DNA of 64,000 bases, taken from Lentzea sp. NBRC 105346. Its GTDB lineage: Bacteria > Actinomycetota > Actinomycetes > Mycobacteriales > Pseudonocardiaceae. Positions 11,226 through 22,465 of this stretch are shown in pieces. The position numbers were made by a program, and so were the translations under genes. How positions within the stretch are numbered: position 1 is the first letter of the stretch; the number at the start of each line of letters is the position of its first letter. The notes below the pieces were generated by a model, which was given only the letters and a program-made list of their open reading frames with translations, did no database searches and was not told the origin of the DNA. The DNA is taken from NCBI RefSeq assembly GCF_030269605.1, contig NZ_BSTQ01000011.1, forward strand, positions 124,001 to 188,000, read 5' to 3'.

Positions 11226-11858
11226 TCAACGCAAGGCGGCGGCGACGTCCTCGGCGGCACGTACGACGTGCGGCCCGACGACGTCGCCGTCGAGCTTTTC
11301 CAGAGCCACCACACCAACCGAGGCACGCAGGCCGGGCACGCCGCGGACGGGAGCGGCGACGCCGTAGGCACCGGGCTGCAGCTCCCCGGTCGACGTCACC
11401 CAGCCCTCGACGTGCAGCGAGATCGCCTTGCCCGCCGCGCCGCGGTGCACAGGATGCCGGGACCCGACGCGGTAGCCGACGTGGAACGCGGTCCACGACG
11501 GTTCGACGACCGCGACGGCCTGGGCCTCGGAGCCGTCCGCGACGGTGAGGTGCGCGGTGGCGCCGACCTTCTCGGCGAGCGCCCGCAGCGCCGGGTTCGC
11601 GGCCATCCGCAGCTGCGGCAGCACGTTGGACGCCAGGCGCAGCACGCCGAGGCCGAGCCGCACCTTCGAGCCCTCGCGGCGCACGAGTCCGCGGGCCTGC
11701 AGCGGCACGAGCAGCCGGTAGACCGCGGCTCTGGACGCGCCGATCGCCGCCGCCAGCTCCGAGATCGACGGCGCTTCGGACTCGGCTTCGGCGACCGCCT
11801 GGAGCAGGGCCAGGCCCCGCTCCAGCGTCAGCGAGCTCTCCTTGGTGGCTCCGACCAT
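11226..11858 (-). CDS. IclR-family transcriptional regulator of homogentisate catabolism (probable)
   Basis: A 210-residue IclR protein: N-terminal winged helix (LTLERGLALLQAVAEAESEAPSISELAAAIGASRAAVYRLLVPL) and a C-terminal effector domain ending APVRGVPGLRASVGVVALEKL, somewhat shorter than the usual 250 residues. The ATG at 11858 overlaps the fahA stop (TGATG); a GTG at 11861 is equally possible. Being last in the fahA operon and next to hmgA, it probably senses homogentisate or a related acid and acts at the 13.9-kb divergent promoter. Confidence 0.85.
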   Translation of the reverse strand: MVGATKESSLTLERGLALLQAVAEAESEAPSISELAAAIGASRAAVYRLLVPLQARGLVRREGSKVRLGLGVLRLASNVLPQLRMAANPALRALAEKVGATAHLTVADGSEAQAVAVVEPSWTAFHVGYRVGSRHPVHRGAAGKAISLHVEGWVTSTGELQPGAYGVAAPVRGVPGLRASVGVVALEKLDGDVVGPHVVRAAEDVAAALR

Positions 11859-13024
11859 CACGCGCTCCGAATCGTCCCGACCACCTCGGCCAGCCCGACA
11901 ACGGAGCCGCCCTCTCCGGGTGCGGTGGCGGTGAGCGTCACCGTGTCACCGTCCTCGAGGAACGACCGGGTGGAGCCGTCCTTCAGCAGGAAGGGTTCCT
12001 TGCCGCCCCACGAGAGCTCCAGGAACGACCCGCGCTCGTCCCTCAGCGGCCCCGAGACCGTGCCGGACGCGAACAGGTCTCCTGGACGAACCGTAGCGCC
12101 GTTCACGGTCATGTGCGCCAGTTGCTGCGCGAACGTCCACGACATCGTGCGGAACGGCGGTCGTGCGACGACCGTGTCGTTCAGCGTGACCTCGATGTTG
12201 ATGTCGAGGCCCCACGGCTGGTCGGCCTTCAGGTAGTCCTGCAGCTGGTGGTCGAACGGCGGCGGCGACACGCGTGCGACGGAGAACGCCTCCAGCGGCG
12301 TGATCCACGCGGCGATCGACGTCGCGAACGACTTCGCCAGGAACGGGCCCAGCGGCTGGTACTCCCACGCCTGGATGTCGCGCGCGGACCAGTCGTTCAC
12401 CAGCGCGACGCCGAACACGTGCTCGGGCGCGCGGGAGGTGGACAGTCGCGACGCGACTGGGCCGCCGCACACGAACCCGACCTCGGCCTCGATGTCGAGC
12501 CGTTCCGACGGGCCGAACACCGGACCGTCGGACGACCGGCGCTGGCCGGACGGCCTGGTGACGTCGGTGCCCGAGACGTACACCGTGCCCGCGCGGCCGT
12601 GGTAGCCGATCGGCAGGTGCGTCCAGTTCGGCGTCAGCGGGTCGCCGTCGGGACGGAACATCCGGCCGACGTTCTCCGCGTGGTGCCGCGACGAGTAGAA
12701 GTCCACGTAGTCGCCGACCTGGAACGGCAGGACGGCGGACGCGATCGGCACGAGCGACGCACCGCGGGGCGCGGACGCGGAGTTGACGATCTCGCGCAGC
12801 CGGGCGCGCAGCTCGCTCCACGCGGGCCGGCCGGCGGCCAGCAACGGGTTGAGCGAGTCGCCTTCCACCAACCCGGAGAGCCGGGGGCCGAGCGCGAGCC
12901 CGCGCAACGGCAGGGCCGAGTCACCGACCCGGACCGCCACGCCCTCGGCCACCACGCCGTAGGGCAGCGTCTGGGGGCCGAACGGCTGGTCTTCCGCGAA
13001 CGCGGCGTCACTGACCCAGCTCAC
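11858..13024 (-). CDS. fahA: Fumarylacetoacetase
   Basis: Hydrolyses fumarylacetoacetate to fumarate and acetoacetate, the last step of tyrosine/homogentisate degradation. The 388-residue length fits. The small N-terminal SH3-like domain is followed by the FAH catalytic domain with QVGDYVDFYSSRHHAENVGRMFRP (catalytic histidine and metal-site Asp region), LPIGYHGRAGTVYVSGT, the metal-binding ERLDIEAEVGFV and VNDWSARDIQAWEYQPLGPFLAKSF. The GTG start at 13024 overlaps the upstream gene's stop (GTGA). Second gene of a three-gene operon with iclR downstream. Confidence 0.96.
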   Translation of the reverse strand: MSWVSDAAFAEDQPFGPQTLPYGVVAEGVAVRVGDSALPLRGLALGPRLSGLVEGDSLNPLLAAGRPAWSELRARLREIVNSASAPRGASLVPIASAVLPFQVGDYVDFYSSRHHAENVGRMFRPDGDPLTPNWTHLPIGYHGRAGTVYVSGTDVTRPSGQRRSSDGPVFGPSERLDIEAEVGFVCGGPVASRLSTSRAPEHVFGVALVNDWSARDIQAWEYQPLGPFLAKSFATSIAAWITPLEAFSVARVSPPPFDHQLQDYLKADQPWGLDINIEVTLNDTVVARPPFRTMSWTFAQQLAHMTVNGATVRPGDLFASGTVSGPLRDERGSFLELSWGGKEPFLLKDGSTRSFLEDGDTVTLTATAPGEGGSVVGLAEVVGTIRSA

Positions 13025-13893
13025 AACAGCCCCAGTCCGGAGAGGTCCTCGACCGGCTCGGACAGCGAGCACGAGCCGTATGAGGCGAAGACGCCACGCA
13101 CGGCGTGCGCGGCCTGATCGGAGAGCGCCGCGGCCTCCTTGGTCAGCGCCTCGGCGTCCGTGCTGGCGAGCGCCTCGCGCACGTCCTTGCCGGACAGCGA
13201 CCGCGCGGTTGCGACGAGCAGGTTGAGGAACCCGTGGTGGGTGAACCCGTTCTCGTCCTCGTGCCGCACCGCCCGGTGCAGCCCCGCGGTCGCCTTGAAC
13301 GCCACCCCGCCGCCGCTGACCACGGACAGGAAGTCCGCGACCTCGTCGACGCTCGGGAAGTTCTCGGAGCTGAGCCCGCCGCAGCGGAGCTTCGGCCAGC
13401 TGCCGTGCTCGATGACGCGTCTCACGCCGTCGAGCCACTCGGGGCCACCGCGGCGCGGCTCGACGACGCGGATGACGTCCTCGGGCACGAACTCGGAGAC
13501 CCGCTCGAGCCACACCTCGTCCACATCGGACGGGGCGGGCATCTCGACCATGCGCAGCGCCAGCAGCTCGCTGCGCGACTCGACGATGGACACGGCCTTC
13601 GGCACGCCGCCGAGCCCGGTGTCGATCACGAGGGAGAGCGCGATCGGTTTGACCGGCTTAACCTTGATCAACTCAGTGATCAGCTCGGCGAGCCGGGATG
13701 CCGGGCAGAGGAAAAGACCCATGACGCCGGCCCACTCGCCGACCCGTCCGTCGAGGTGCCCGCGCACCGCGTCGGGCATGGCCGCGTTCCCCGGAGGGAA
13801 GAGTGCGGCGTCGTCAACAAGCCTTGCCAGCAGGGGTGGAGTACCGCGCGGACCGGGTGCTCGGAGTTCGACAGCGCTTGACACGGCTGACAC
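13021..13893 (-). CDS. Uncharacterised protein of the homogentisate operon
   Basis: A 290-residue soluble protein I cannot assign to a named enzyme. It begins with a conserved-looking LLARLVDDAALFPPGNAAMPDAVRGH segment, then alternates short hydrophobic strands and helices (IALSLVIDTG, LLALRMVEMP, IRVVEPRRGG, LRCGGLSS, VAFKATAGLHRAV), a pattern compatible with a TIM barrel. It is first in the operon with fahA and divergent from hmgA, so a role in homogentisate catabolism, maleylacetoacetate handling or repair is plausible. Start is GTG 13893 or GTG 13884; neither has a clear ribosome-binding site. Confidence 0.8.
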   Translation of the reverse strand: MSAVSSAVELRAPGPRGTPPLLARLVDDAALFPPGNAAMPDAVRGHLDGRVGEWAGVMGLFLCPASRLAELITELIKVKPVKPIALSLVIDTGLGGVPKAVSIVESRSELLALRMVEMPAPSDVDEVWLERVSEFVPEDVIRVVEPRRGGPEWLDGVRRVIEHGSWPKLRCGGLSSENFPSVDEVADFLSVVSGGGVAFKATAGLHRAVRHEDENGFTHHGFLNLLVATARSLSGKDVREALASTDAEALTKEAAALSDQAAHAVRGVFASYGSCSLSEPVEDLSGLGLL

Positions 13894-13924
13894 GCTAGCC
13901 GTGTACCGGCAACTGAACAAAGAT

Positions 13925-13939
13925 GTCCGACTATCGAAC
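13925..13939. promoter_or_regulatory. IclR-type palindrome upstream of hmgA
   Basis: GTCCGACTATCGAAC is an imperfect 15-bp palindrome (GT-C-CGA, 3-bp centre, TCG-A-AC) close to the operator form known for IclR-family regulators PobR and PcaU (GTTCG-N5-CGCAC type). It lies 15 bp before the hmgA start, between the divergent operons, next to an iclR gene. Operator function is inferred. Confidence 0.5.
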
Positions 13940-13953
13940 GCCCGGAGATAGCT

Positions 13954-15117
13954 ATGGCTTACTACCGCACGGTCGGGGAGATACCCCGAAAGCGCCACAC
14001 ACAGTTCCGCAAACCGGACGGTGGCCTCTACGCGGAAGAGCTGATGGGAGTCGAGGGCTTCTCCAACGATTCGGCCCTGCTCTACCACCGGTACCTGCCC
14101 ACCGCCATCGTCGCCGCGGAGGTCGTCAAGGACGAGCGCGGCACCGTGTCCCCGAACCTGCCGCTGAAGCCGCGGCACTTCAAGACGGGTGACCTGACCT
14201 GGGCTTCTGACGATGTCGATGCCATCACGGGTCGCCGCAAGCTGTTCGGCAACCCGGACGTGACGATTGGGTTTGTGCGCGCCACCGCGCCGTCGCCGCT
14301 GTACCGCAACGCGTTCGGCGACGAGCTGCTCTACGTGCAGACCGGCGCCGGTGTCGTCGAGACGATCTACGGCGCGCTGGACGTCGCCGAGGGCGACTAC
14401 CTGGTCATCCCGACGTCGTGCACCTATCGGGTGGTTCCGTCCCAGCCAATGAACATCCTGGTGCTGGAGGCCACAGGCCACATCGGGCCGCCGCGCCGCT
14501 ACCTGTCCGCCAAGGGCCAGTTCCTGGAGCACTCGCCGTACTGCGAACGCGACATCCGCGGCCCGTCCGAGCCGCTGCTGGTCGAGGGCACGGACGTGGA
14601 CGTGATCGTCCGGCACCGCAACGGCATCACCAAGATGACTTACGCCAACCACCCGTTCGACGTCGTCGGCTGGGACGGGTGCCTCTACCCGTGGGCGTTC
14701 AACATCCGCGACTTCGAGCCCATCACCGGCCGCGTGCACCAGCCGCCGCCCGTGCACCAGACGTTCGAGGGCCCGAACTTCGTCGTGTGCTCGTTCTGCC
14801 CGCGCAAGGTCGACTACCACCCGCTCGCGGTCCCGGTGCCCTACAACCATGCGAACGTCGACTCCGACGAGCTGATGTTCTACGTGGGCGGCAACTACGA
14901 GGCCCGCAAGGGATCGGGCATCGGCATCGGTTCGATGTCGCTGCATCCGTCCGGCTGCACGCACGGCCCCCAGCCGGGCGCGGTCGAGGCGTCGCTGGGT
15001 GTGGACTACTTCGACGAGACCGCGGTCATGGTCGACACGTTCCGCCCGCTGGAGCTCGGCGAGGCCGCCGACGCGTGTGAGGACCCGAATTACGCGTGGA
15101 CTTGGGCCCGCCGCTGA
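13954..15117 (+). CDS. hmgA: Homogentisate 1,2-dioxygenase
   Basis: Opens the ring of homogentisate to maleylacetoacetate. The 387-residue protein starts MAYYRTVGEIPRKRHTQFR, typical of the actinobacterial HmgA branch, and keeps the iron-site region: NHANVDSDELMFYVGGNYEARKG (His and Glu ligands) and the downstream HPSGCTHGPQPG histidine motif. It ends 3 bp before a strong hairpin. GGAG at a spacing of six supports the ATG. Divergent from the fahA operon, so the two together complete the pathway apart from a recognisable maleylacetoacetate isomerase, which is not in this window. Confidence 0.95.
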   Translation: MAYYRTVGEIPRKRHTQFRKPDGGLYAEELMGVEGFSNDSALLYHRYLPTAIVAAEVVKDERGTVSPNLPLKPRHFKTGDLTWASDDVDAITGRRKLFGNPDVTIGFVRATAPSPLYRNAFGDELLYVQTGAGVVETIYGALDVAEGDYLVIPTSCTYRVVPSQPMNILVLEATGHIGPPRRYLSAKGQFLEHSPYCERDIRGPSEPLLVEGTDVDVIVRHRNGITKMTYANHPFDVVGWDGCLYPWAFNIRDFEPITGRVHQPPPVHQTFEGPNFVVCSFCPRKVDYHPLAVPVPYNHANVDSDELMFYVGGNYEARKGSGIGIGSMSLHPSGCTHGPQPGAVEASLGVDYFDETAVMVDTFRPLELGEAADACEDPNYAWTWARR

Positions 15118-15119
15118 AA

Positions 15120-15174
15120 TGCCCTGAAGGGCACCCTCAGGACATCTGACGCCCTGAGGGTGCCCTTCAGGGCA
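15120..15174 (+). terminator. Strong hairpin after hmgA
   Basis: A perfect 22-bp inverted repeat (15120-15141 and 15153-15174) around an 11-base loop, beginning 3 bases after the hmgA stop. The arm contains TGAAGGGCACCCTC and there is no T-run, so this may be a hairpin-only terminator or a repeated palindromic element. A related hairpin stands at 37242-37279. Confidence 0.7.
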
Positions 15175-15217
15175 CATGCGCCCGAAATTGTCAGGGGCGC
15201 GTAATAGCGTTCGGGTT

Positions 15218-16390
15218 GTGAGAACACGTGCGGTCGCGGGGCGCTGGCAGGGCCTGGGCAAGGCCCTGCCGGTGCTCTGGGGCGTGTACTCGGGCAGCGG
15301 CAAGTCGCCGTACCTGGTCTGCGTCGACCTCGCCGCGGGCACGGCGAAGTGCACCTGCCCGTCCCGGCAGTTCCCGTGCAAGCACGCCCGCGGCCTGCAG
15401 GAGCTGGACCTGCCGGACGCGCTGCCGCCGCCCTGGGTCGAGGAATGGACCACGCGTCGACGCCGTGAGCCGCTGGACGAGTCGCCCGAGGCCGTCGAAC
15501 GCCGGGCAAAGGCTCGCGCGTCCCGGGCCGAGGCGCGCTCGGAGGCGATGGCGGGCGGTGTAGCCGGCCTGTCGGACTGGCTGGTGGACGTCGCGGCCGC
15601 GGGCACGGCGTCGCTGCCCGGCCACAGCGCGGCGTGGTGGCAGAACATCGCCGCACGCATGATCGACGCGCAGGTGCCGGGCCTGGCGTCCGCGGTGACG
15701 GCACTGCAGGAGACGGTCATGCGGGCCGAGCCGCACTGGACGGTCGAGGCCGCGGACCGGCTGGGCGCCCTGCACCTGATGACGCGCGTGCAGCCGCCGT
15801 GGCGGCTCGGGGTCACGGTCACCGAGGAGAGCGTGAAGTCCGGCGAGGGCTGGTCGGACCGCTGGATCCCGCTGATGCGCGCCGAGTCCGACGACGGACG
15901 GGTGCGCACGGTCCGGCAGTGGGCGTGGGGCAGACAGCGCCGCGAGTGGGTCGTCGGCGTGCGGCACTCGGCGGTGGGCGCGCCGGTGCCGCTGCTGCCG
16001 CACGGCCAGGAGAGCTCGGCGGAGCTGTTCCCGTATCCGGGCGCCGCCCCGTTCCGAGTGGCCTTGGGTGAGCTGGCCGGGAGCCGTGCGCCGGATCCGA
16101 TCCCGGTGGCGGAGTCGTGGCGGCTGGCGATCGCCGCGCTGGAGCCGTTGATCGCGGGCGACCCGTGGACCAGGCTGCTGCCGGTGTCGTGCGCGTCGGT
16201 CCGCTTCGCCGGCGGTCACCTGGTGGACGTCGACCAGCGCGGCGTACCCGTACGTGACGACAGCGCGCTGGACCTGGCGCTGGCGATCACCGGCGGTGCG
16301 GCATTCGACGCGTGGGGCCTGTGGGACGGCCGCACGTTCCGGCTGGGCGCCGTCGCGACGCCCGGTGGCCCGCCGGAGGTGGTCGGGTGA
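15218..16390 (+). CDS. SWIM zinc-finger protein
   Basis: A 390-residue protein with a SWIM zinc finger near the N terminus: C45-x-C47-x6-C54-x-H56 (CTCPSRQFPCKH). The preceding ALPVLWGVYSGSGKSPYLVCVDLA segment is typical of SWIM proteins found beside DUF5691 genes. The rest is mostly helical without a recognised enzyme motif. Relatives I recall have a longer leader before the finger; here an in-frame stop and the hmgA hairpin lie just upstream, so the N terminus is short. It heads the five-gene block and overlaps the next gene by four bases (GTGA). SWIM fingers bind DNA or proteins. Confidence 0.88.
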   Translation: MRTRAVAGRWQGLGKALPVLWGVYSGSGKSPYLVCVDLAAGTAKCTCPSRQFPCKHARGLQELDLPDALPPPWVEEWTTRRRREPLDESPEAVERRAKARASRAEARSEAMAGGVAGLSDWLVDVAAAGTASLPGHSAAWWQNIAARMIDAQVPGLASAVTALQETVMRAEPHWTVEAADRLGALHLMTRVQPPWRLGVTVTEESVKSGEGWSDRWIPLMRAESDDGRVRTVRQWAWGRQRREWVVGVRHSAVGAPVPLLPHGQESSAELFPYPGAAPFRVALGELAGSRAPDPIPVAESWRLAIAALEPLIAGDPWTRLLPVSCASVRFAGGHLVDVDQRGVPVRDDSALDLALAITGGAAFDAWGLWDGRTFRLGAVATPGGPPEVVG

Positions 16391-17802
16391 GGCAGCAGTG
16401 GCACGACACGGTCCAGGCACTCCTGGTCGGCACGAACCGCGGCGGTGGCGACCCTCGTCAGCTCCTGGACGACTGCGCAGCCTTCGGTGTGGCCGCCTAT
16501 GGCGCGACGGTGCCTCCCGTCGTGCGCGAGGCACCGATCCGCGAGGCCCCCGCGTCGGACGACCGGTTGCCCGGCGAGGCCGCCCGGCTCGTGCTGGAGG
16601 CGATCCTCGGCCTGGACGACGAGGTGCTGCTCACGGAGTGGTGCGCGCTGGCCAAGGCGCATGGCGTCGTCGCCGAACACCGGCGCCTGCCCGCGTTGCT
16701 CGCACTGGGCACCGCCCGGCCGGGCCTGCGCTCGGCGATCGTCGAGGTACTCGGCTCGCGCGGCCGGTGGCTGGCCGCGACGCGCCCAGGCTGGGCGTGG
16801 GCGCTAGGCGCTGCCCCGCAGATCACCGAGGTGGCGCTGGCGGACGTCCTGGACCTCCCGAGCGCGCAACGGGTCCGTGCCCTGCGGCGCAAGCGCTTGT
16901 CCTCCCCGGAGGAGACCACGGCCTTCATCGTCGAGCAGTTCGCGGTGCAGAAGCGGGCCACGGACCGGCAGGTGCTGATCAGCTCGTTGGAGACCGGCCT
17001 AGGCGCGGCGGACGAGCCCCTGCTGGAGTCCGCGCTGGACGACCGGTCGAGCGCGGTGCACGACGAGGCGTTGCGGCTGCTGCGGAAGCTGCCTGGCAGC
17101 GCGTTGTCGGCGCGCGCCGCCGAACGGCTCTTCGCGGGCCTGTGGCTGACGCAGGACGGGTTCGAGGTGCAGTCGGACGAGGTGTGGTCGCGCCGGGTTG
17201 ATCCGATCGAGGAGCGGGACCTGATGCGCGACGGCACGGAAGGCGGTGTCGCCGGTCGCATCCGTGGCGCGGCAGCCAGCGTGCCGCCGTCGTACTGGAC
17301 GTCCCGTCTGGACACCGATGATGCCGGCGCGGCCGCCTTCCTCCGCCGGGGCGCCTGGGCGGCGGCTTTGCTGCGGGGTGTCGCGGATCGGCTGTCGCAG
17401 GCGGTGGACGCGCGGCCATGGGCTGTGGCTGCGGCCGAGACGTTGACCGGCATGGAGCAGCTGGAGATGCTCGCCGGGCTGCCGGACGACATCGCCGAGC
17501 AGGCCGTGGTCGCGGTGTCGCTGAACTGGAACTACGACCTGCTGGATCACGCCTGCGCTCAGTTGCCCGCGCCGTGGTCCGCCGAGACCACCAGGGCACT
17601 GCTGAACCGCTACGCGGCCCTGCCCGATCCCCGTTGGCGTCGTGGGCGCCCGCCGTCCGTGGTGCTGGCACGCGGCGATGCGGACCTGTTGGGCGCGAAC
17701 TGGGACGCGCTGACCAAGCGGTGGCCGGAGAGCACGCTGGAACTGGAAGTGCTGCGCCTGCGAATCAAACTCCGCGAGTCGTTCAACCAGGAGGACTCGT
17801 GA
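16387..17802 (+). CDS. DUF5691 family protein
   Basis: A 471-residue largely helical protein opening VRQQWHDTVQALLVGTNR, which fits DUF5691. From about residue 200 it contains repeated helix pairs (LISSLETGLGAADEPLLESALDDRSSAVHDEALRLLRKLPG) resembling HEAT-type repeats, so it is probably a scaffold or adaptor. No catalytic motif is visible. The GTG start overlaps the SWIM stop. Its own 3' end, with an embedded AGGAGG at 17789-17794, is copied 335 bp downstream in front of the AAA+ gene, suggesting these two genes were once directly coupled. Confidence 0.85.
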   Translation: MRQQWHDTVQALLVGTNRGGGDPRQLLDDCAAFGVAAYGATVPPVVREAPIREAPASDDRLPGEAARLVLEAILGLDDEVLLTEWCALAKAHGVVAEHRRLPALLALGTARPGLRSAIVEVLGSRGRWLAATRPGWAWALGAAPQITEVALADVLDLPSAQRVRALRRKRLSSPEETTAFIVEQFAVQKRATDRQVLISSLETGLGAADEPLLESALDDRSSAVHDEALRLLRKLPGSALSARAAERLFAGLWLTQDGFEVQSDEVWSRRVDPIEERDLMRDGTEGGVAGRIRGAAASVPPSYWTSRLDTDDAGAAAFLRRGAWAAALLRGVADRLSQAVDARPWAVAAAETLTGMEQLEMLAGLPDDIAEQAVVAVSLNWNYDLLDHACAQLPAPWSAETTRALLNRYAALPDPRWRRGRPPSVVLARGDADLLGANWDALTKRWPESTLELEVLRLRIKLRESFNQEDS

Positions 17803-18138
17803 CGAGGGGCGACCAACGAACGCAACCACGCACCCAGAGTGGGGCGCGTCTGGTGACCACGTACGGAACGCGATTGGGGCTTGACTTGGGGTGCGGCGTG
17901 GTAGCCCTTGTTGGGCCGGCAGATCTTGAATCTGCCGGCGGAGCCGGCCCACCACGCCGCGAGGGGCCCCAAGTCAAGCCCCAATCGCACGCGCGAAGCG
18001 CGTCCCGGAAGACGCAGCGCCCCACGACACCGGCAGCCAACAAAAGGGCGACCACGCACACAACCGGCAGCCAAAGACCACGCACGAAACCGGCAGCCAC
18101 AACCACCAAGCTGTCGCTCAACCAGGAGGACATGTGAC
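17778..18138 (+). repeat. Direct repeat of an RBS/start region bracketing a non-coding insert
   Basis: A 26-bp sequence at 17778-17803, covering the end of the DUF5691 gene (TCAACCAGGAGGAC then GTGAC), recurs at 18113-18138 directly before the AAA+ gene with 23 of 26 bases identical, 335 bp apart. The right copy supplies the ribosome-binding site and GTG start of the AAA+ gene. The 331 bp between the genes hold no plausible ORF, but a large palindrome and, at 18029-18100, three copies of ACCGGCAGCCA with spaced ACCACGCAC motifs. Confidence 0.8.
17870..17988. repeat. 119-bp nested palindrome
   Basis: Perfect outer arms of 22 bp at 17870-17891 and 17967-17988 (sharing GGGGCTTGACTTGGGG and its complement), second arms GCGGCGTGGT (17893-17902) with ACCACGCCGC (17951-17960), and an inner perfect 10-bp hairpin GCCGGCAGAT/ATCTGCCGGC (17915-17924, 17930-17939). 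The transcript could fold into one long stem. It looks like a MITE- or REP-like element, or a structured RNA inside the operon. Confidence 0.8.
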
Positions 18139-19207
18139 TGCCGTACTCAGGCCGACGGCCGAACAGGAGTACGCCGTTGAGCTCGAGGCGCTTCGCGTCG
18201 CCGATGACCGGCAGCGGCCGCCGAACTGGCGGATGTCCCCGCAGGCCGTCGTGAAGTACGTGCTCGGCGGCACCCTGCCGGACGGAACCGTGATCACGCC
18301 CAAGTACGTGGGTGACCGGCGGCTCGTCGAGGTGGCCGTCGGCACGCTGGTGACGGACCGGGCTCTGCTGCTCGTGGGCGTGCCTGGCACAGCGAAGTCG
18401 TGGCTGTCCGAACACCTGGCGGCGGCGATCAGCGGCGACTCGACGCTCGTCGTGCAAGGCACGGCGGGCACGTCCGAGGACCAGGTCCGCTACGGCTGGA
18501 ACTACGCCCGCCTGATCGCCGAAGGTCCAAGCGACCAGGCACTTGTCCCGTCGCCCGTCCTAAGGGGCATGCGCACGGGAGCAGTCGTGCGCGTGGAGGA
18601 GCTCACGCGCATGCCGTCGGAGGTGCAGGACTCGTTCATCACGGTGCTGTCGGAAAAATCCCTGCCGGTCCCGGAACTGAACACGTCCGTCCAGGCCGTA
18701 CCGGGCTTCACGGTGATCGCCACGGCGAACGACCGCGACCGCGGCGTGAACCAGATGTCGTCGGCGCTCGCGCGACGGTTCAACACCGTGGTCCTGCCGC
18801 CGCCGGCCACGGAGGACGACGAGGTGCAGATCGTCGTGACCCGCGCCGCGCAGCTCGGCAAGGCGCTGGAGTTGCCCGCCGAGCCGCCCGCGCTGGACGA
18901 GGTGCGCCGCGTCGTGCGGATCTTCCGCGAGCTGCGCAACGGGTCCACTGTGGACGGGCGCACGCAGCTGAAGTCGCCCAGCGGCAGCCTGTCGACGGCC
19001 GAGGCGATCTCGGTGATCGCGTCCGGGATGGCTTTGGCCGGGCACTTCGGCGACGGGACGCTCGGCGCGGACGAGTTGGCGTCCGGGTTGCTCGGCGCGG
19101 TGGTGAAGGACCGGGTGTCGGACGCTGCGGTTTGGGAGGAGTACCTGGAGACCGTGGTGAAGGAGCGGGCCGAGTGGCGCGACCTGTACCGGGCGTGCCG
19201 TGACTGA
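18134..19207 (+). CDS. MoxR-type AAA+ ATPase
   Basis: A 357-residue AAA+ protein. Walker A is G82-VPGTAK-S89, Walker B is AVVRVEE (E155-E156), sensor 1 is TVIATAND and the arginine-finger region ALARRFNTVVLPPP; the order and spacing match MoxR/RavA ATPases. Such proteins act as ring ATPases remodelling a partner, usually together with a vWA protein as at 21323. The GTG at 18134 is fixed by AGGAGG at 18124-18129 in the duplicated leader. It overlaps the next gene by eight bases. Cytoplasmic. Confidence 0.92.
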   Translation: MTAVLRPTAEQEYAVELEALRVADDRQRPPNWRMSPQAVVKYVLGGTLPDGTVITPKYVGDRRLVEVAVGTLVTDRALLLVGVPGTAKSWLSEHLAAAISGDSTLVVQGTAGTSEDQVRYGWNYARLIAEGPSDQALVPSPVLRGMRTGAVVRVEELTRMPSEVQDSFITVLSEKSLPVPELNTSVQAVPGFTVIATANDRDRGVNQMSSALARRFNTVVLPPPATEDDEVQIVVTRAAQLGKALELPAEPPALDEVRRVVRIFRELRNGSTVDGRTQLKSPSGSLSTAEAISVIASGMALAGHFGDGTLGADELASGLLGAVVKDRVSDAAVWEEYLETVVKERAEWRDLYRACRD

Positions 19208-21326
19208 TCGCGTCACGCTGCTCGGGATCCGCCACCACGGGCCGGGCTCGTCGCGCATGGTCGCCGCGGCGCTGGAACGCGTGCGGCCCGAGGTGGTCCT
19301 GATCGAGGGACCGCCGGAGGCGGACGCACTGACAAGACACGTGCCGGACCTGACGCCGCCCGTGGCGTTGCTGCTGCACGACGAGTCGGATCCGTCGACG
19401 GCGGCGTTCTGGCCGTTCGCGTCGTTCTCGCCGGAGTGGCAGGCGATGACGTGGGCGGCGCGCAACGGCGTGCCGGTGCGGTTCTTCGATCTGCCGGCGG
19501 CGGCGTCACTCGACTCGGAAGGGCATGGCTCGGTCGACCCGATCGGGCTGCTCGCCGAGGCCGCCGGGTTCGACGATCCGGAACGCTGGTGGGAGGACGT
19601 GGTCGAGCACAGCGCCAGCGACCCGATCGACCTCGCGAAGGCCGTGGCGGAGGCGATGGCGTCGGTGCGGGCCGAGGTGTCCACGGATGTGCTCGGCGAG
19701 CACACGTTGTTGCGCGAGGCGTACATGCGCAGGTCGCTGCGCCAGTCGCTCAAGGACTTCGACGGTGAAGTCGCCGTGGTGTGCGGCGCGTGGCACGTGC
19801 CCGCGCTGATGCCGCCGCTGCCCACCGCGACGTCGGACAACGCGCTGCTGAAAGGCCTGCGGCGCCGGAAGATCTCCGGGACGTGGGTGCCGTGGAGTCA
19901 CGGCCAGCTGGCGGCTTCGTCCGGCTACGGCGCCGGCGTCGACTCGCCCGGCTGGTACGCGCACCTGTGGGAACACCACGACGACGTGGTGCCGCGCTGG
20001 TTCGCGAAGGCGTGCTCGGTGCTGCGGGCCGAGGATCTGCCGGCCTCGACCGCGTCGGCCGTCGAGGCGGTGCGGCTCGCCGACACGCTGGCGGCGTTGC
20101 GGGAACGGCCGTCGCCCGGCCTGTCCGAGGTGACCGAGGCGGCGCTCGCCGTGCTGTGCGGCGGAGACCGGGTTCCGTTGCAGCTGGTGCACCGCAAGCT
20201 CGTCGTCGGCGAGCGGCTCGGGTCGGTCGGCGCCGAGGTGCCGCGCTCGCCCCTGGCGGCGGACCTGGCGCGGTTGCGGAAACGGCTGCGGCTCCCCGCT
20301 TCGCTGGAACCGCGGCAGCTGCGGCTCGACCTGCGCAAGGACACCGACCGCGAGCGCTCGAAGCTGTTGCAACACCTGGAGGTTCTCGGCGTGCCTTGGG
20401 GCAAGCCCGATCGGACCAGCTCGCTCGGCACGTTCGCCGAGATGTGGCAGCTGGAGTGGAACCCGGCGTTCGAGGTGGCGGTGGCGGTCGCGGCACGCCA
20501 TGGCACGACCGTCGAACAAGCCGCGTCTACGGTCCTGTGCACGGACGCCGAGGAGGCCGACCGGGTCGCCGTCGCGTCCGGGATCCTCTCGCGGGCCGTC
20601 GGATGTGAGCTGCCCGCGGCGGTGGAGGCGGGCCGCAAGGCGCTCGACCGGTGCGCCGCCAAGGCGACCGACGCGTTGGAACTGCTCGGCGCGGTGCCGT
20701 CGCTGGCGCGCACGGTCCGCTACGGATCGGTGCGCGGAACGGATCCCGAACTGCTGCGGGTCGCGCTGCACGGCCTGTTGGCGCGCGGCGCGGTCGGCCT
20801 GCCGCTGGCGTGCCGCGGCGTGGACGACGAGACCGGCGAACAGGCACTGTCCGTTGTGGACGATGCACACGAGGCCGTTCGCCTGGCCGCCGACGAGCCG
20901 CATCAGCAGACGTGGTGGCGGGCGCTGACGAAGCTGGCGGCCGAGCCGGACGCGCACGGCCTGCCCGCGGGCCGGGCGACCCGCCTGCTGTGGGAGGCCG
21001 GATCGCTGGACACCGACGCGGTCGCCGTGCGGCTGCACCGGTCGGTCGCCTCGGCTTTCGTCGCGGGCTTCCTGCGCGGGTCGGCCACCCTGCTGGCCGC
21101 GGACCCGCGCCTGTTCGGCCTGATCGACGAGTGGCTGACCGCGTTGCACACGCCCGACTTCGACGACGCGCTGCCGTTGCTGCGCCGGGCGATCAGCGAG
21201 TTCAGCCCGGCAGAACGCCGGCTGCTCGGCGAGCGGGTGACGTCCGGCGCGGTCGAGCGGGTGGACGACGAGTGGGACGACGCCATCGCCGCACGGCTGG
21301 TGGCCCGGATTCGGGAGCTGCTGTGA
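19200..21326 (+). CDS. DUF5682 family protein
   Basis: A 708-residue protein, the largest of the block. The N terminus LLGIRHHGPGSS (R11, H12, H13), VVLIEGPPEAD (E36) and a later VVCGAWHVPAL (C195, H199) recall the His/Glu pattern of the TraB/ChaN/EreA superfamily, so a hydrolase or metal/haem-binding site is possible; that link is my inference. The remaining 500 residues are helical, rich in Leu/Arg/Glu and without clear motifs. Coupled on both sides: eight-base overlap with the AAA+ gene and GTGA overlap with the vWA gene. Confidence 0.85.
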   Translation: MTDRVTLLGIRHHGPGSSRMVAAALERVRPEVVLIEGPPEADALTRHVPDLTPPVALLLHDESDPSTAAFWPFASFSPEWQAMTWAARNGVPVRFFDLPAAASLDSEGHGSVDPIGLLAEAAGFDDPERWWEDVVEHSASDPIDLAKAVAEAMASVRAEVSTDVLGEHTLLREAYMRRSLRQSLKDFDGEVAVVCGAWHVPALMPPLPTATSDNALLKGLRRRKISGTWVPWSHGQLAASSGYGAGVDSPGWYAHLWEHHDDVVPRWFAKACSVLRAEDLPASTASAVEAVRLADTLAALRERPSPGLSEVTEAALAVLCGGDRVPLQLVHRKLVVGERLGSVGAEVPRSPLAADLARLRKRLRLPASLEPRQLRLDLRKDTDRERSKLLQHLEVLGVPWGKPDRTSSLGTFAEMWQLEWNPAFEVAVAVAARHGTTVEQAASTVLCTDAEEADRVAVASGILSRAVGCELPAAVEAGRKALDRCAAKATDALELLGAVPSLARTVRYGSVRGTDPELLRVALHGLLARGAVGLPLACRGVDDETGEQALSVVDDAHEAVRLAADEPHQQTWWRALTKLAAEPDAHGLPAGRATRLLWEAGSLDTDAVAVRLHRSVASAFVAGFLRGSATLLAADPRLFGLIDEWLTALHTPDFDDALPLLRRAISEFSPAERRLLGERVTSGAVERVDDEWDDAIAARLVARIRELL

Positions 21327-22465
21327 CCGAACGGTTGCGCCGATGGCGGTTGCTGCTGGGCCCGTCCGCCGAGGACGTGGCGGCCCTCAACGAGGACGAC
21401 CAGCACCGTGACGCGGCGCTGACCGGCCTGTATGGCGGCGGCGAACGCGGTGAACGCGGCGAGCGCGGGGCCGGTCTGGGCGGCAGCACGCCGCAGCTGC
21501 ACCGGTGGCTGGGCGACGTGCGCAAGTACTTCCCGACGAGCGTCGTGCAGGTGATGCAACGCGACGCCGTGGAACGCCTGGGCCTCAAGCAGCTGCTGCT
21601 GGAACCGGAGCTGCTCTCGACGATCGAGCCGGACGTGAACCTCGTCGGCACGCTGCTCTCGCTCTCCCAGGCGATCCCGGCGCGCACGCGCGAAACCGCG
21701 AAGGCCGTGGTGCGCCAGGTCGTCGAGGACATCGAACGCCGGATCGCGGACCGGCTGGTCGAGGCCGTGCGCGGCGCCGTCGACCGCTCGCAGCGGACCC
21801 ACCGGCCCCAGCTGCCCGACGTCGACTGGAACGCCACGATCCGGGCGAACCTCAAGCACTACCAGCCGGAACACGCCACGGTCGTCGTGCACGACCTGGT
21901 CGGCCACAAGCGCCGCAGCCGGCAGGCGTCACTGCGGGACGTGGTGCTGCTCGTCGACCAGTCGGGCTCGATGGCGGAGTCTGTGGTGCACGCCGCGGTG
22001 CTGGGTTCGGCGATGGCGTCGATCCGGAGCCTGAGCACGAAGCTCGTCGTGTTCGACACCGAGGTCGTCGACCTGACCGACCAGCTGACCGAGCCGGTCG
22101 ACCTGCTGTTCTCCACCCAGCTCGGCGGCGGCACGGACATCAACCGGGCCGTCGCGTACGGCCAGACCCTGGTCAGCCGGCCGACCGACACGACCGTCGT
22201 GTTGATCACGGACCTCTACGAGGGTGGCAACGAGCACGAGCTGCGCAGGCGCGTCCGGGAGCTGGTCGCGAGCGGCGTGACCGTCGTGGTGCTGCTGGCG
22301 CTGTCGGACAGCGGCACGCCGTCGTTCAACCACGAACTGGCCGCCCGCATCGAGGCGCCGGCGTTCGCGTGCACCCCGGATCGGTTCCCCGAGCTCATGG
22401 CGGCGGCCCTGCGGCGTGACGACCTCACGGCGTGGGCGGAGAGCGAGGGTATTGCCGCCCACTAG
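21323..22465 (+). CDS. vWA domain protein, partner of the MoxR-type ATPase
   Basis: A 380-residue protein. Residues 1-200 are helical, with a Gly/Glu/Arg-rich linker (GGGERGERGERGAGLGG); the C-terminal von Willebrand A domain has an intact MIDAS: D212-Q-S214-G-S216, T271 in GGGTDINRA and D297 in VLITDLYEGG. Metal-dependent binding is therefore expected. MoxR ATPases and vWA proteins form chaperone pairs in RavA-ViaA, NorQ-NorD and CbbQ-CbbO. The last gene of the block, it overlaps the convergent membrane gene by four bases. Start GTG overlaps the DUF5682 stop. Confidence 0.92.
   Translation: MTERLRRWRLLLGPSAEDVAALNEDDQHRDAALTGLYGGGERGERGERGAGLGGSTPQLHRWLGDVRKYFPTSVVQVMQRDAVERLGLKQLLLEPELLSTIEPDVNLVGTLLSLSQAIPARTRETAKAVVRQVVEDIERRIADRLVEAVRGAVDRSQRTHRPQLPDVDWNATIRANLKHYQPEHATVVVHDLVGHKRRSRQASLRDVVLLVDQSGSMAESVVHAAVLGSAMASIRSLSTKLVVFDTEVVDLTDQLTEPVDLLFSTQLGGGTDINRAVAYGQTLVSRPTDTTVVLITDLYEGGNEHELRRRVRELVASGVTVVVLLALSDSGTPSFNHELAARIEAPAFACTPDRFPELMAAALRRDDLTAWAESEGIAAH

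Follow-up and report, generated by a model that had tools for sequence, protein, structure and literature searches.

A conserved five-gene block in Lentzea that shares a MoxR ATPase, DUF5682, and vWA core with Escherichia coli yehLMPQ

Several described bacterial systems, including NorQ-NorD, RavA-ViaA, and CoxD-CoxE, combine a MoxR ATPase ring with a vWA protein that bears a metal ion-dependent adhesion site (MIDAS). To our knowledge, these pairs come without the DUF5682, DUF5691, and SWIM proteins that are the subject of this report. In the NorQ-NorD system, a finger of the vWA protein is reported to occupy the pore of the MoxR hexamer, contact between the MIDAS and the client is proposed, and ATP-driven remodeling is described as enabling metal insertion (PMC13036017, PMC9976466). 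YehL gives its name to one of the seven MoxR subfamilies that have been named (PMC3893208, crediting Snider and Houry 2006). Here we examine a block of five genes at positions 15218-22465 of a 64,000-nucleotide stretch of Lentzea sp. NBRC 105346 (contig NZ_BSTQ01000011.1, positions 124,001 to 188,000), hereafter called the window. Taken together, the five genes resemble an ancient and self-contained protein machine that is present in many bacteria and is related to E. coli yehLMPQ.

All five genes lie on the forward (+) strand, and all five products exceed their Pfam cut-offs. A SWIM zinc-finger protein of 390 amino acids (15218-16390; SWIM, 22.3 bits), whose start is ambiguous because an in-frame ATG at 15176 would add 14 residues, is followed by a DUF5691 protein of 471 amino acids (16387-17802; 211 bits). 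Next are a YehL-like, MoxR-type AAA+ ATPase of 357 amino acids (18134-19207; AAA_5, 124.6 bits), a DUF5682 protein of 708 amino acids that is homologous to YehM (19200-21326; 748 bits), and a CoxE-type vWA protein of 380 amino acids that is homologous to YehP (21323-22465; VWA_CoxE, 161.9 bits). The original prediction, which was made from the letters of the window and a list of its open reading frames, had proposed five same-strand genes with overlaps of 4, 8, and 4 nucleotides. These coordinates are confirmed, with the overlaps falling at the SWIM/DUF5691, AAA+/DUF5682, and DUF5682/vWA junctions, respectively. The sole junction without an overlap is DUF5691/AAA+, where a gap of 331 nucleotides is present.

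Judged by homology, the AAA+/DUF5682/vWA core is the yehLMP arrangement of E. coli. In strain K-12, the gene order is yehL (AAA+), yehM (DUF5682), yehP (vWA), and yehQ (SWIM). The three core genes are homologous and occur in the same order, and both sets include a SWIM gene. The AAA+ protein is 42% identical to YehL over 359 aligned columns, the vWA protein is 37% identical to YehP over 368 columns, and the DUF5682 protein is 29% identical to YehM over 501 columns. In the BLASTP comparison, homology covers approximately the initial two thirds of YehM, and by Pfam, which identifies YehM as a DUF5682 protein with 331 bits, it covers nearly the full length. The two sets differ in that the SWIM gene of E. 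coli follows the vWA gene, whereas that of the window is upstream of the set, and YehQ (a SWIM protein by Pfam) yields no BLASTP alignment with the window SWIM protein. Furthermore, DUF5691 was not found in E. coli by a profile search included as a control. The identity to YehL and the adjoining vWA partner are features shared with the YehL subfamily. However, in a midpoint-rooted tree, the AAA+ proteins of five-gene loci form a group of their own (76 rows, 100/100) that stands apart from E. coli YehL and from the paralogues discussed below.

The yehLMPQ set is present in 5162/5426 complete E. coli genomes at a median of one place, and 5320/5322 of these places are chromosomal. It is reported to be absent from a genome-reduced E. 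coli strain (PMC10652928), and two Shigella sonnei lineages are reported to have lost yehL and yehM (PMC12795559). Therefore, the genes are dispensable under some conditions. In the literature searched, which excluded subscription papers, we found no function for YehL-type ATPases and no mention of DUF5682 or DUF5691. In the papers examined, YehL is named only as a subfamily or a member of one, and the yehLMPQ genes otherwise appear in two gene lists. The block cannot be called unnamed, given that its core is yehLMP and that YehL denotes a recognized MoxR subfamily.

A motif scan of genome contigs yielded at least 580 relatives of DUF5682, and the best 80 of these were kept and combined with E. 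coli and the window to give 82 loci. The scan used the patterns G[IV]RHHGPGS or P[FL]AxFSPEW, such that the invariance of those stretches among the 80 loci is partly a product of selection. The order SWIM-DUF5691-AAA+-DUF5682-vWA on one strand is found in 64/82 loci, where order rather than distance was counted (the vWA gene of L093 is about 5 kb away), and it spans Actinomycetota, Bacteroidota, Cyanobacteriota, Planctomycetota, Chloroflexota, and Pseudomonadota. Because the same order recurs so often, the gene set is far beyond what chance would produce. The remaining 18 loci include five from Lentzea in which the vWA gene has been split off, three with DUF5682 alone, two that are ended by the contig after DUF5682, two with DUF5682 and vWA only, and two in which SWIM and DUF5691 are reversed (L090 is of this type). 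The other four are E. coli, a locus with a split DUF5691, a truncated contig, and a locus with AAA+ and DUF5682. Thus, the five families do co-occur in other genomes as had been anticipated. Conservation in actinobacteria had also been expected, and the block is indeed widely conserved, but it is not specific to actinobacteria.

Co-occurrence was likewise evident among 198 genomes of the window's phylum, which were searched for AAA+, DUF5682, DUF5691, and SWIM, with vWA outside that search. DUF5682 is present in 17 of these genomes, and AAA+ (E<=1e-60) is present in the same 17, with 25 genes each, and every one of the 25 AAA+/DUF5682 pairs falls within 1 kb. DUF5691 matches over the cut-off and SWIM both occur in the same 16 of these 17 genomes, and three further DUF5691 matches in the sample fall under the cut-off. 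In 197/198 genomes, the four markers are either all present or all absent. The association of DUF5691 with DUF5682 has a Fisher p of 1.2e-22, a value that ignores shared ancestry. AAA+ and DUF5682 are therefore inseparable in the phylum sample, and vWA is nearly always beside them. Closer to the window, DUF5691 is present in its own genome and in 23/23 other genomes of the genus that were searched, and its AAA+ protein is 91% identical to that of Lentzea flava. In the AAA+ tree, Bacteroidota form one clade and the phylum labels require 6 changes when the minimum possible is 5 (row L062 is Rhodococcus, and its Cyanobacteriota label was disregarded). This pattern suggests largely vertical descent.

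The distribution also indicates how the five proteins might be divided into units. Genomes of the window's class, which are probably Streptomyces to judge from a reversed SWIM/DUF5691 order like that of L090, carry extra AAA+/DUF5682/vWA sets that lack the block's SWIM and DUF5691 families. One genome of the class (G166) has a yehLMPQ-type set with a YehQ homologue (L141) alongside its five-gene set. In addition, SWIM and DUF5691 are encoded by a single frame in 7/82 loci and also in L144. Because of these extra sets, the yehLMPQ-type set, and the SWIM-DUF5691 fusions, we conclude that the core is AAA+/DUF5682/vWA, which SWIM and DUF5691 joined as a second module within a single large clade. 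Within the core, DUF5682 and vWA share a single reading frame in the paralogous locus L139. Since the AAA+ gene runs in a different frame through the first 368 codons of this one, the actual fusion protein is shorter. Similarly long DUF5682 frames occur in four other genomes, where they were seen as frames only. Two other paralogue sets (L140 and L143) have the order vWA-AAA+-DUF5682 and a very divergent DUF5682.

The sequence features predicted for the two motor components proved to be intact. The AAA+ protein has a Walker A motif (G82-VPGTAK-S89) that is kept in 77/77 loci. Its Walker B motif ends in Glu-Glu (E155 E156) rather than Asp-Glu, and each position is at least 97% conserved among 77 rows. 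Column conservation is used here in place of strict Walker B and Arg-finger expressions, which matched 22/77 and 40/77, respectively. The AAA_5 score, together with Walker A and B, places this protein within the MoxR-type AAA+ core. The vWA protein has the MIDAS motif D212-Q-S-G-S216 as well as GGGTD and ITD, and DxSGS is kept in 75/76 loci. These findings support the proposal that the pair forms a MoxR-vWA machine. When compared by BLASTP with two MoxR subfamilies, the AAA+ protein matches YehL with 235 bits (E 2e-79) and RavA with 21.9 bits (E 0.034). We rejected RavA-ViaA orthology on the basis of this RavA score and a ViaA score of 29.3 bits, and we rejected chelatase or GvpN identity because the NCBIfam matches are far under their cut-offs. 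A search of PDB sequences with the AAA+ query retrieved Midasin and NorQ, and the same search with the vWA query gave rows at chance level or none.

For DUF5682, a resemblance to the His/Glu pattern of TraB-like proteins had been proposed. Members of the TraB/TIKI/Ere superfamily are described as having a site composed of two His and two Glu residues (PMC6254334). In the AlphaFold2 model of DUF5682 (mean predicted local distance difference test score, pLDDT, of 92.7), an N-terminal alpha/beta domain is joined to a long helical region, and about two thirds of the protein is helical. The putative TraB/TIKI-like domain corresponds to about residues 1-217 (19200-19850, + strand), as judged from its motifs, invariant sites, and model. 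In this model, G9-x-R-H12-H13 follows strand 1, E36 follows strand 2, R172-E173-x-x-M176 lies in the helix before the strand at 191-196, and G196-x-x-H199 is at the end of that strand. Together with S77-x-E79, D97, and E136, the His, Glu, and Arg residues of these motifs make up the conserved set of the domain.

Among 38 rows, which include YehM and five divergent paralogues chosen without a motif filter (and in which the window is counted twice), 16/20 checked sites are invariant. These are H12, H13, P30, E36, P54, S77, E79, D97, W131, E136, R157, R172, E173, M176, G196, and H199, which cover all of the His, Glu, and Asp residues checked plus two of the three Arg residues. At the other four sites (G9, R11, P38, and P201), two or three of the paralogues carry a different residue. 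The motif order of TraB is GTxH, Glu, RN, and GxxH, and that of Ere is GExxH, Glu, RD, and HNxH. DUF5682 resembles this superfamily in having GxxH, Glu, R-[DEN]xxM/W, and GxxH motifs in order, and it differs by the additional S77-x-E79, D97, W131, E136, and R157 residues and by its large helical C-terminal region. A four-motif pattern matched 82/82 DUF5682 proteins, 9/9 TraB proteins, and 0/7937 other open reading frames, and a looser version matched 12/15 Ere proteins and 1/7937 other frames, although both patterns were composed after viewing both families. The helix and strand positions of the model agree with this resemblance. Because even the remote paralogues keep the His/Glu/Arg constellation unchanged, the proposed resemblance is supported, and these motifs suggest that the N-terminal domain is an active TraB/TIKI/erythromycin-esterase-like hydrolase.

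The zinc finger and the helical fold predicted for the two proteins of the second module are also supported. The zinc finger of the SWIM protein is C45-x-C47-x6-C54-x-H56 (at about 15350-15385), with the CxCx6CxH arrangement kept in 72/74 loci and its columns invariant in 20 sequences. A long C-terminal region extends beyond the finger, and the rest of the protein found no relative among PDB sequences. DUF5691 had been proposed to be a helical scaffold, and its AlphaFold2 model is a helical solenoid with a mean pLDDT of 86.1. The best Foldseek rows for this model are designed armadillo proteins at E 0.002, with none under 0.001, and VIA-align gives HEAT/ARM proteins at Z 10 to 11, a range that the tool describes as common for helical repeats. 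A PDB sequence search returned weak alphaREP rows only. Therefore, DUF5691 is predicted to be a HEAT/ARM-like helical solenoid, as would suit a scaffold.

Our preferred interpretation, which we hold tentatively, is that the block encodes an ATP-driven MoxR-vWA remodeling machine with a dedicated enzyme partner, the TIKI-like DUF5682 hydrolase, which would be remodeled or activated by the motor. By analogy with NorQ-NorD, the AAA+ hexamer would hold the vWA protein in its pore, and the vWA MIDAS would grip DUF5682. ATP hydrolysis would then remodel DUF5682, such that a metal is loaded or the active site is opened and the hydrolase is switched on. Because DUF5682 and vWA are naturally fused in L139, it is reasonable to suggest that the two work in contact. 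Perhaps SWIM and the HEAT-like DUF5691 jointly form a recognition unit that sets the timing or the target of the machine's action. The core composition, the fusions, and the invariant residues are shown by the data, and from these we infer the contacts within the complex, the metal, the activation, and this recognition role. We also considered a more ambitious version, in which a MoxR-vWA motor gates or metallates a TIKI/TraB-fold hydrolase, possibly as a new class of AAA+ protease, with a SWIM-HEAT module, either fused or split, as the substrate sensor. We know of no machine that couples a MoxR-vWA motor to a TIKI/TraB-fold hydrolase, and we regard this version as doubtful.

Several observations weigh against our preferred interpretation. 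The G9 residue of the first DUF5682 motif is proline in three paralogues. Comparison of profiles by hhalign gave a probability of 0.4% for DUF5682 with TraB and 2.6% with Ere, although the control comparison of TraB with Ere also failed (0.2%), and Foldseek found no match under E 0.001 for the DUF5682 model. VIA-align paired DUF5682 residues 1-212 with chain E of 7w5z, which is Tetrahymena complex IV, over 177 residues with Z 9.3 and a root-mean-square deviation of 5.0. This result favors the proposed fold but is only modest (by the tool's own measure, models without a clear match reach a best Z of 7 to 8), and chain E is not confirmed as the TraB-family subunit that Tetrahymena complex IV is reported to contain (PMC10060162). 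None of the fold-comparison rows shown names a TraB, ChaN, or Ere chain, which excludes nothing. PDB sequence searches with DUF5682 and TraB queries gave rows at chance level or none, and the Ere profile retrieved EreC and its relatives. Because the Ere profile found EreC and the AAA+ query found Midasin and NorQ, this type of search does work where relatives exist.

Additional reservations come from incomplete loci. Whole-genome searches of six genomes with such loci found AAA+ in 4/6 (outside the locus in L042, L063, and L082) and SWIM in 2/6. The two genomes without a YehL-like AAA+ and the four without SWIM are all metagenome-assembled. In the cyanobacterial loci L063 and L082, AAA+ is missing from the examined flanks of the locus and is encoded elsewhere in both genomes. 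In the five Lentzea loci noted above (L021-L025), an intact vWA gene is separated from the other four genes by an inversion. Because AAA+ can reside elsewhere and vWA can be split off, co-transcription is not essential. Furthermore, the joining of DUF5682 and vWA in one frame is verified for a single locus.

The same components could instead be arranged with DUF5682 as the effector, such that the AAA+ ring with vWA unfolds substrate proteins chosen by SWIM/DUF5691 or delivers them to DUF5682 for cleavage. Such an arrangement would amount to an AAA+ protease based on a TIKI-type peptidase, and it would make use of both the invariant His/Glu set of DUF5682 and the separate module of SWIM and DUF5691, which some loci encode as a fusion. 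We consider this arrangement unlikely. We know of no threading protease of the MoxR class, and the TIKI superfamily also includes a heme binder. Although superfamily members include peptidases, esterases are also among them (PMC6254334), so peptidase activity is not implied, and the known MoxR-vWA pairs are reported to remodel partners or insert metal (PMC9976466, PMC13036017). Alternatively, DUF5682 might be a non-catalytic structural adaptor, with the machine maturing some other enzyme whose gene lies outside the block, in the manner of NorQ-NorD and nitric oxide reductase. The maturation of dedicated complexes is a role proposed for MoxR proteins (PMC3893208), one TIKI-fold protein is reported to lack the catalytic motif (PMC6254334), and the large helical share of DUF5682 would suit an adaptor. 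However, the checked His, Glu, and Asp sites never vary among the 38 rows, which would be unusual for a pseudo-enzyme, and no neighbor cluster is found in more than 13/82 loci, the largest being Pseudonocardiales synteny. An adaptor role therefore seems improbable to us.

A final alternative is that the block serves in conflict or phage defense, in the way of the MoxR-vWA ternary systems described in multicellular bacteria. Many hosts among the listed loci have what we take to be multicellular habits. A MoxR-vWA pair plus a third component is common to the ternary conflict systems and to the block, but the third component of those systems is described as VMAP, iSTAND, FtsH, or a beta-propeller (PMC7159879), and Pfam reports none of these for the five proteins at E<=0.01. 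Similarity to bpMoxR is weak (24.2 bits when the cut-off is 27). DUF5682 occurs in 36/72,556 plasmid records, and in 24 of these the match spans the greater part of the protein. The two plasmid records examined have SWIM, DUF5691, AAA+, and DUF5682 in order, and one also has vWA. Moreover, matches to PHROG families of unknown function were obtained for vWA (249 bits) and DUF5682 (123 bits), and a phage-labeled fecal scaffold (L153) encodes AAA+, DUF5682, and vWA in a row. Because of these matches and this core triad, rare carriage by phage is possible. However, L153 is the one match in 50,697 phage records, is unverified, and may be a bacterial contig, and a motif scan of viral contigs gave no relative. 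Membership in a PADLOC defense model was rejected, as none of its families matched the five proteins at E<=0.01. The presence of the set in most E. coli genomes at a median of one place, the same surroundings from Lentzea to Kutzneria, and the largely vertical tree also speak against this alternative, as does the finding of no variable or recurrent effector among the 25 largest neighbor clusters, from which rare or variable genes would escape. Overall, a core cellular function fits the set better than a defense island does. Phage defense has little support, and we judge it very unlikely.

The gap between DUF5691 and AAA+ has a separate explanation. It holds a dispersed repeat of about 316 nucleotides (17803-18118, no strand assigned), which has at least 109 matching pieces in its own genome. 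Of these, 32 score at least 200 bits (including the repeat itself), several are at contig ends, and the count is a lower bound because 40/118 first-look candidates were scored. The element contains a perfect 22-nucleotide inverted repeat (17870-17891/17967-17988). It is absent from Lentzea flava and Saccharothrix carnea, and only about 55 nucleotides separate DUF5691 from AAA+ in L. flava (L021). Thus, the dispersed repeat is not part of the system. The element is flanked by two copies of a 26-nucleotide direct repeat that are 88% identical, and each includes a ribosome-binding site (RBS). The left copy is at the end of DUF5691 (17778-17803, + strand) and the right copy is at the start of AAA+ (18113-18138, + strand). 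The original prediction had described this junction as joined by a copied RBS, and the duplicated stretch is real. However, because it flanks a dispersed repeat that relatives lack, the copied RBS is a trace left by an insertion or duplication and does not belong to the system itself. Of six copies of the element that were examined, some sit in short-repeat arrays of the type ACCGGCAGCCAA...CGACCACGCAC.

The surroundings of the block were also inspected. Directly upstream of the SWIM gene is a homogentisate 1,2-dioxygenase-like (hmgA-like) gene (13954-15117), for which the HgmA matches are weak though above the cut-off. Between the two genes is a perfect 22-nucleotide inverted repeat (arms 15120-15141 and 15153-15174) that looks by eye like a terminator. 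The hmgA-like region keeps its place in the aligned Lentzea, Saccharothrix, and Umezawaea genomes. The inversion in the five Lentzea loci measures about 10 kb relative to window positions 11236-21324, and its breakpoint is at the DUF5682/vWA junction. No further operon gene could be assigned, as no cluster among the 25 largest exceeds the 13/82 loci mentioned above when open reading frames below 90 amino acids are excluded. The largest clusters reflect synteny around hmgA from Lentzea to Kutzneria, with many wrong-frame open reading frames, and a few are common families at varying places, such as a major facilitator superfamily (MFS) transporter in 9 loci.

These findings place the Lentzea block within a question that can be addressed in a laboratory strain, as the set occurs in 5162/5426 complete E. 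coli genomes. Interpreting DUF5682 as a likely TIKI-type hydrolase provides candidate catalytic residues, and the two kinds of natural fusion (SWIM-DUF5691 and DUF5682-vWA) indicate which proteins go together. If the block does encode a machine that links a motor to a hydrolase, then its core would be common to bacteria from Lentzea to E. coli, and this would explain yehLMPQ.

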